Part shown: positions 8,012 to 10,522 of the stretch, piece by piece
Position numbering within the stretch: the stretch's first letter is position 1
Layout: each line of letters starts with the position of its first letter
DNA from: Leucothrix arctica
Lineage (GTDB): Bacteria; Pseudomonadota; Gammaproteobacteria; Thiotrichales; Thiotrichaceae
Direction: 5' to 3'
Assembly (NCBI RefSeq): GCF_003172895.1
Contig: NZ_QGKL01000027.1
Coordinates: forward strand, 1 to 52,634
DNA: 52,634 nucleotides
The notes under the pieces: generated by a model
What the model was told of the DNA's origin: nothing
Databases searched by the model: none
The model's input: the letters and a program-made list of their open reading frames with translations, nothing else
Position numbers and translations under genes: made by a program

Positions 8012-9088
<1,077 letters not shown>

Positions 9089-9131
9089 ATACGAAAGTGG
9101 TCTGATCAGGCCGCTCTAAAAAAAAGACTTC

Positions 9132-9166
9132 GGGAGACTTCCCATCGACGATTTCAGTGAAAATCG
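9132..9166 (+). promoter_or_regulatory. Probable mreC translation-initiation region with ATC start
   Basis: GGGAG (9132-9136) lies 7 bases before ATC at 9144. In the mreC frame no ATG, GTG or TTG occurs between the stop at 9117 and ATG 9207. A 6-bp hairpin, CGATTT-CAGTGA-AAATCG (9149-9166), follows within the first codons. A CTG at 9180 with GAGAG upstream is a second candidate. Confidence 0.5.
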
Positions 9167-9206
9167 GCTAGAGAGTTCGCTGCTAATTAAATTTTTAATA
9201 GCAGCG

Positions 9207-10025
9207 ATGCTATCAGTCACAATGGTACTTATGGACTATCGTGATTCGAGCTTGTCTCCGATTCGTACCTCGCTAAATATTGTATTGCATCCACTCCAGC
9301 TTGCCGTCGATGCGCCATTTCAGGCGTCAAGAGAGATGAGAGAGTTTTTTGTCAATCACGCGACGATGAAAAGCGAGAACGCTAAGCTTCAAGAGCTTGT
9401 GAATATTTATGCAGCGCGTGATCAGAAATACCATTCTATCGCTCAAGAAAATATCCGCTTCCGTAAAGAACTCAATGCGACTCAGTCGGTAAAAGAACGC
9501 TTCATGTTGGCTGAAATTTTATCAGTCTCTCGTGACCCTTACCGTCAGACAGTGCGTATTGATAAAGGCTCAAAGGATGGCTTGTATCGTGGCCAAGTGC
9601 TTTTAGCTGGAAACAGTATTTACGGTCAAGTGTTCCGAGTTGAGCCTAACTCTGCCGTGATTCTTCAGCTAACAGATACCAAGCACGCTATTCCGGTTAG
9701 AAACAACCGAACAGGTTTGGGTGCCATTGCTGTCGGCTCTGGACGTACTAACGAGCTTGAGATAAAAAATGTTGAAGCGAATGTCGATATCCGTACTGGC
9801 GATACCTTCTTCAGCTCTGGATTAGGCCAATTATTCCCAGCTGATTTTCCTGTTGCGATGGTTGCTTCAGTGGCTTACAACCCAGGTGATTCATTCATGC
9901 GTGTAAAGGCGCGAACGCTTGTGGACTTTAGTAAGAGCCGAGAAGTTATTTTGATTTGGCGTTCAAACCACATTAGCGTATTGCGAGCTTCTGATGCAGA
10001 AGCCGAAGCAGCGGAGAAGCCGTAA
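9207..10025 (+). CDS. mreC: Rod-shape protein MreC (true start probably upstream)
   Basis: Bitopic inner-membrane protein that links MreB to periplasmic cell-wall enzymes. Coordinates give the first conventional ATG, but that start cuts the transmembrane helix in half. The frame upstream reads DDFSENRLESSLLIKFLIAA directly into the ATG, giving a full helix that aligns with the usual MreC start (F-S-x-x-x-L). The protein therefore likely begins at the ATC at 9144 (293 residues) or CTG at 9180. Downstream come a coiled coil (about residues 45-90) and the beta-barrel core with ISVSRDPYRQTVRIDKGSKDG. It ends two bases before mreD, consistent with coupling. Confidence 0.9.
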   Translation: MLSVTMVLMDYRDSSLSPIRTSLNIVLHPLQLAVDAPFQASREMREFFVNHATMKSENAKLQELVNIYAARDQKYHSIAQENIRFRKELNATQSVKERFMLAEILSVSRDPYRQTVRIDKGSKDGLYRGQVLLAGNSIYGQVFRVEPNSAVILQLTDTKHAIPVRNNRTGLGAIAVGSGRTNELEIKNVEANVDIRTGDTFFSSGLGQLFPADFPVAMVASVAYNPGDSFMRVKARTLVDFSKSREVILIWRSNHISVLRASDAEAEAAEKP

Positions 10026-10027
10026 GA

Positions 10028-10522
10028 ATGGAACCTTATGTAATGCGTTTTCGTGGCGCAGTCTTGGTATCAATGCTGTTTGCATTTGCGCTGACATTAC
10101 TCCCATTACCTGACGGACTGCTGACTTGGCGTCCACAGTGGGTTGCATTAACACTAGTACATTGGGTGTTATTGCAGCCAAGAAAATCAAGCATAGCCAT
10201 GGCATGGTGTGCCGGGCTGTTGTTGGATGCTCAGTATGGTTCGAGCCTTGGTCAACATGCCTTAGGTCTAAGTGTCGTGGTCTTTATTACGATGCGTATG
10301 CGCTTACGTATTAACGTGTTTACATTGAGTCACCAGCTAACCGTTTTATTGGTAGCGCTGGGTGTATACCATCTTATTAACCTTTGGGTACTAGGCTTCA
10401 CCGGCAACTCGCCGACAGCCTGGATGTACTGGTTGTCTTTGGCTGGTAGTTTGATTATTTGGCCAGTGTATCACTGGCTGTTATCTCGACTGTTTATGGC
10501 AGCCAATCGTTTCGACGATTAG
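10028..10522 (+). CDS. mreD: Rod-shape protein MreD
   Basis: Integral membrane partner of MreC. The 164-residue protein has about five hydrophobic helices and the family motifs WRPQWVALTLVHWVLLQP near residues 34-51 and GLLLDAQYGSSLGQHAL near 63-79. Length is normal. The mreC stop is two bases before the ATG, so translation is probably coupled. It ends 9 bases from the stop of the convergent phosphodiesterase gene, with no terminator visible between them. Confidence 0.93.
   Translation: MEPYVMRFRGAVLVSMLFAFALTLLPLPDGLLTWRPQWVALTLVHWVLLQPRKSSIAMAWCAGLLLDAQYGSSLGQHALGLSVVVFITMRMRLRINVFTLSHQLTVLLVALGVYHLINLWVLGFTGNSPTAWMYWLSLAGSLIIWPVYHWLLSRLFMAANRFDD

Follow-up and report, generated by a model that had tools for sequence, protein, structure and literature searches.

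The output of Escherichia coli pcnB is reportedly limited by its AUU start codon, as the title of a 2002 paper by Binns and Masters has it, and Gvozdjak and Samanta are said to have described, in an arXiv paper, genes that prefer non-AUG starts; these could include mreC, though studies of annotated starts tend to miss AUU, AUC and AUA. A passage in PMC9410913 describes infC and pcnB as the only two genes of E. coli with an AUU start. The gene for IF3, infC, resembles mreC as described below in that an AUU, AUC or AUA start stands behind a good Shine-Dalgarno (SD) match and is conserved across the class. However, the product of infC autoregulates its gene (same passage of PMC9410913), whereas MreC is no initiation factor, and any effect of IF3 on mreC would be in trans. 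The pcnB gene shares with mreC an AUU start in a gene that does not encode a regulator, but we find a clear ATT in only three enteric-like genomes of 30, and the trait is far wider in mreC. Finally, Belinky et al. (PMC5622118, in part) report weak start codons accompanied by stronger SDs, as we see in mreC; in the same part of that paper, AUU-type starts are excluded as too few, whereas mreC has them in many families. A search of the open-licence literature pairing mreC with start-codon terms, with some matches judged by title, found no report of a non-AUG start for this gene.

Here, AUH denotes AUU, AUC or AUA at the codon aligned with the ATG of E. coli mreC (ATG AAG CCA ATT TTT, M-K-P-I-F), which served as the alignment reference, and an SD is a match of at least four bases at a spacing of 4 to 11. 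The E. coli gene shares a homologous first codon and tail with the mreC studied here, but it starts with AUG and lacks an SD so defined. We propose that mreC of Leucothrix arctica starts at an AUC with an SD, that such starts are widespread in the Gammaproteobacteria and probably represent an old trait, and that they most likely hold MreC low relative to MreB, a reading to which we give a probability of about 0.78.

The mreC locus of Leucothrix arctica and its genus

The window, meaning the whole stretch of 52,634 nucleotides that was analysed, contains the following features.

8024 to 9088, + strand: mreB, an open reading frame with a standard ATG start and its stop at 9086-9088 (Pfam PF06723, 484 bits)
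9117 to 9119, + strand: TAA in the mreC frame, upstream of the gene, by direct reading; eight codons separate it from the ATC
9132 to 9136, + strand: SD match GGGAG, ending seven bases 5' of ATC 9144
9144 to 9146, + strand: proposed mreC initiation codon ATC, present in 7/7 members of the genus, at the onset of constraint and aligned with the E. coli mreC ATG
9144 to 10025, + strand: mreC, 293 amino acids from the ATC, coordinates including the stop (Pfam PF04085, 117.2 bits)
9180 to 9182, + strand: CTG, codon 13, a rejected alternative start; no SD in front by eye, and the onset of constraint lies 12 codons earlier
9207 to 9209, + strand: ATG, codon 22, the first standard start codon, inside the membrane helix; rejected as the main start
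10028 to 10522, + strand: mreD, with a standard ATG start (Pfam PF04093, 67 bits)

The identity of MreC is given by the barrel core (PF04085, 117.2 bits against a cut-off of 28) and by the position of the gene between mreB (PF06723) and mreD (PF04093). An earlier sequence-only reading of this DNA had noted that the mreC frame holds no standard start codon between the stop at 9117 and ATG 9207 and that GGGAG stands seven bases before ATC 9144; direct reading agrees on both counts, with no ATG, GTG or TTG among codons 9120-9206. When read from the ATC, the predicted protein has, by sequence, a cytoplasmic tail and one membrane helix. Both are cut when it is read from ATG 9207, which reduces the helix to nine residues (MLSVTMVLM) before an Asp. 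The same reading had left the start as either ATC or CTG. Of these, the ATC stands, being present throughout the genus and placed where constraint begins, and the CTG falls, as constraint begins 12 codons upstream of it.

The first codon of mreC is ATC in all seven genus genomes compared, at an MreC identity of only 71-74%, and the best matches in the six other members begin at residue 1 of the ATC-start MreC query. The sequence CATCGACGA is identical in 7/7 members, and sequence farther upstream varies. The seven share the N-terminal pattern I-D-[DE]-[FL]-x-[EQ]-N-R-L-E; the F-S-x-x-x-L lead-in described earlier as conserved varies within the genus. Nor did a hairpin proposed over the first codons gain comparative support: among the seven genus sequences we found neither a conserved hairpin (consensus energy -0.47 kcal/mol, covariation term 0) nor compensating pairs with both sides changed. 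One member (L005) has a GTG in frame three codons 5' of the ATC. Since ATC and ATG differ by a single base, the plain alternative was a sequencing error, with a G in truth at 9146. This explanation is refuted by ATC in 7/7 independent assemblies, with ATG at that position in 0/7 species, and we give it practically no weight.

The aligned codon across the Gammaproteobacteria

The own family comprised 63 genomes, 58 of them with an MreC match, and 55 N-termini were read (G023, G024 and G081 were left out). The aligned first codon is ATT in 30, ATC in 12, ATG in 12 and not assigned in one, giving AUH in 42/55. Genus by genus, ATC is found in 7/7 of g1; ATT in 14 and ATC in one of the 15 of g2; ATT in seven and ATC in three of the 10 of g5; ATT in seven and ATC in one of the eight of g6; ATT in the single locus of g4; one ATT and one ATG in g7; and ATG in 6/6 of g8 and in g3. 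The ATG-start genes of g8 and g3 (e.g., L013, L016 and L018) have an SD match in two of 11 assigned loci.

For the class, 377 genomes were sampled, 347 of them with an MreC match; because the sample consists of the best-scoring rows, it leans to MreC most like that of the window, and the fractions below are not class-wide frequencies. A first batch of 105 loci from other families was read, of which one (L134) was dropped for internal stops. Among the remaining 104, the aligned codon is ATC in 33, ATT in 22 and ATA in 14, so that AUH is found in 69/104 loci and 53/82 families. The next 30 loci left four not assigned (L182, L192, L195 and L198), and a further 40 left 19 (L229, L244-L246, L250 and L255-L268); 16 of the loci (L192, L198 and L255-L268) come from other classes of the phylum, have an N-terminus that cannot be aligned and stand outside the counts. 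With 47 more loci included, those outside the own family come to 81 AUH, 43 ATG, 3 GTG, 2 TTG and 22 others (n = 151), and AUH starts occur in 58 of the 103 other families sampled. An AUC start that had been taken for a local rarity is thus one case of an AUH start widespread in the class.

Over all assigned class loci, AUH is found in 123/207, ATG in 56, and GTG, TTG or no assignment in 28; many lineages have lost the trait or do not show it. Another codon stands at the aligned place in 23/207 rows; this includes at least two loci that resemble AUH one codon upstream (L087 and L153) and one with an ATG nearby (L021), all of which were kept as other. The groups with ATG-start genes include enteric-like and beta-like ones. 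Two mreC frames carry in-frame TGA codons, two in G114:C1:600402-601223 and one in G364:C13:4322-5149; broken genes, assembly errors and another code are candidate readings of these.

Most AUH loci encode the tail I-K-x-[LI]-F-x-x-G-P-S, which is shared across the class. The stretch from the in-frame stop to the AUH is free of standard codons in 101/123 AUH loci (60/69 in the first batch), and an in-frame standard codon lies further upstream in 22/123, including L005 of the genus and, elsewhere in the own family, g4, g7 and 5/8 loci of g6. These 22 loci would allow translation to enter mreC from upstream, either at another standard start or by a frameshift from mreB. However, in the window the in-frame stop at 9117 intervenes. 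The stop lies four codons or fewer from the AUH in 26 AUH loci and two or fewer in 11; examples are TAG ACT GCC ATT, with two codons separating stop and ATT (L028 and L030), and TAG GAG NNN GTY ATT, with three (L009, L011 and L035). Upstream entry is refuted for loci whose stop adjoins the start and, given also that the codons upstream of the AUH lack a coding pattern, we regard it as extremely improbable as a general explanation.

Substitution rates by codon position were taken from 193 within-family pairs of AUH loci. In codons -12 to -5 the rates are about 0.62-0.67 at all three positions. The last four codons before the AUH, which hold the SD and spacer, have lower rates (0.28-0.40). Codons 2-6 (0.15, 0.11 and 0.37 at the three positions) and 7-12 (0.12, 0.03 and 0.40) have a coding pattern; codon 1 was preselected as AUH, so its own conservation in this table is circular. 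Because the coding pattern begins immediately after codon 1, we place the start of coding at the AUH codon itself. This bears equally on the notion that translation truly begins farther downstream, at a standard codon (ATG 9207 in the window), and yields a protein with a shortened helix. Gene finders limited to ATG, GTG and TTG would pick such codons, and the numbering of the Pseudomonas aeruginosa PAO1 protein, described below, seems to have arisen in this way. However, codons 1-21 are under protein-level constraint and encode the class-wide tail, and ATG 9207 leaves only nine helix residues; the comparison within the genus and the constraint upstream led us to reject it, and we consider a downstream start highly improbable.

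Three loci of family f134 (L174, L177 and L178) read TAG GAG CCG GTC ATC AAA CCG ATA TTC, and the MreC they encode is nearly identical to that in PDB chains 6zlv and 6zm0. At 164 residues, the latter has the length expected of MreC(97-258), a P. aeruginosa construct given in part of PMC8137920, with two further residues from a tag. With L174 numbered from its ATC, the third residue of 6zm0 falls on residue 113, which makes an offset of 16; codon 17 of L174 is a GTG within the helix. From this offset and this GTG we infer that the PAO1 MreC record appears to begin at the helix GTG, without the first 16 residues. P. aeruginosa structures and constructs accordingly use a numbering that appears 16 residues late (L174:1084-1180, PDB 6zm0). 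More generally, an AUH start can hide the front end of MreC from gene finders, and MreC records that start at the next ATG, GTG or TTG miss the cytoplasmic tail and part of the membrane helix.

SD matches, control genes and start-codon strength

An SD precedes the AUH in 56 of the 69 first-batch loci outside the own family and in 39/42 inside it, compared with 159/993 and 114/549, respectively, for internal Ile codons of the same genes (16-21%); over all loci the figure is 106/123. AUA stands at the start in 14 of those 69 outside-family loci, where 7.6 would be expected from Ile usage (simulated p 0.013). This excess, about twice expectation, is modest evidence, and it fits a start codon that is not read by tRNA-Ile. 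AUA, the rarest Ile codon of these genes, occurs at the mreC start with a good SD in several families; the 14 loci outside the own family include L145, L091, L096, L103 and L089. Taken together, the comparisons confirm AUC 9144 as the predicted start of mreC, in place of AUG, and they show the position of such starts, their conservation and their SD.

The infC control behaved as expected of a gene with this trait, with an AUH codon and SD in 30/30 genomes, of which 19 lack a standard codon ahead of the domain. In L. arctica itself, infC (L224, G000:C3:23704-23907, + strand) has an ATC start, in the context TAG CAT ATC, behind TAAGGAG. One genome has two neighbouring matches to the IF3 N-terminal domain on one strand (G028:C30:74831-75034 and 75349-75525), perhaps two tandem infC-like genes. 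The mreB start is ATG in 49/51 readable own-family loci, and an ATG lies near residue 1 in 23/25 other loci. In the 30 control genomes, mreD has an ATG (25) or GTG (4) within 12 codons before its domain in 29/30. An AUH plus SD anywhere before the domain occurs by chance in 11/30 mreD stretches, and the combination therefore carries weight only where position and conservation also agree. Of these 30 genomes, 29 had their mreC read: 21 start with AUH and five with ATG, and three are not assigned. We also considered pcnB for use as a further positive control across the class; it was rejected, the ATT with GAGGTG being clear, by eye, only in the three enteric-like genomes (L307, L311 and L316).

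The SD is found in 17/56 ATG-start mreC loci versus 106/123 AUH loci (Fisher p 2e-13, the loci not being independent). Ten beta-like loci had their ATG placed by eye; when these are excluded, the ATG rows with an SD number 15/46. On an MreC tree of 179 rows, with at least 12 changes, we found no significant association of SD and start-codon changes: six independent supported pairs gave 3.3 changing the same way and 1.5 the opposite way (median sign-test p 0.69). Compensation between start codon and SD is therefore strong by counts but fails phylogenetic correction; we rejected it as a proven effect, and given how few events on the tree are independent it is only suggestive. As a lead, weak initiation may be kept by either route, AUH with an SD or AUG without one.

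These same counts could be read otherwise, namely that the AUH start is simply tolerated: a strong SD would offset the weak codon, drift would maintain it, and MreC output would be ordinary. The excess of SDs at AUH loci and the genome-wide tendency of weak starts to accompany stronger SDs (PMC5622118, in part) are what one would then expect. AUG, however, is one point change away, yet is found at the aligned codon in 0/42 AUH loci of the own-family AUH genera. AUG is normally favoured; among 61,358 reconstructed AUG starts, one became AUU (same part of PMC5622118). Moreover, AUG genes of the E. coli type lack a good SD, as if initiation strength were being kept down. On balance, we think a merely tolerated start unlikely, and prefer the view that AUH limits the output of mreC.

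MreC supply and cell shape

How might such a start operate? Translation of mreC would begin at AUC 9144 with initiator fMet-tRNA, positioned by the SD seven bases upstream. Initiation by fMet-tRNA at AUH would be weaker than at AUG and would yield less MreC relative to MreB, which is encoded in the same operon with an AUG start. Across the Gammaproteobacteria, AUU, AUC and AUA starts are probably an old trait of mreC, and AUG would have replaced AUH in some lineages, such as that of E. coli.

The arrangement most likely serves to keep MreC in low supply, because an excess would disturb the PBP2-RodA elongation machinery and so favour, under selection, a low output. When MreC is overexpressed, E. 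coli cells become shorter and wider, an effect that MreD partly counteracts (as described in part of PMC7793260), and this phenotype supplies a reason for limiting MreC. When more IF3 is present in a reconstituted system, initiation at AUU with a CAU anticodon declines (PMC10158994, in part), and the AUH start of mreC may likewise be sensitive to IF3. The earlier suggestion that MreC output is limited, or senses initiation fidelity, fits the published data on infC, pcnB and MreC overexpression. A more speculative and rather doubtful extension is that mreC and infC form an AUH pair across much of the Gammaproteobacteria, such that free IF3, or the fidelity of initiation, sets the supply of MreC and hence cell elongation and width.

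The conserved AUH start suggests a brake built into MreC synthesis. If a core gene of cell shape starts in this way in many families, it would be a far wider case than those described, and one that lies beyond translation factors and RNA metabolism. The switches from AUH to AUG in mreC form a natural set for the study of start-codon evolution, and the AUH start itself provides a connection from translation initiation to cell shape that can be tested.
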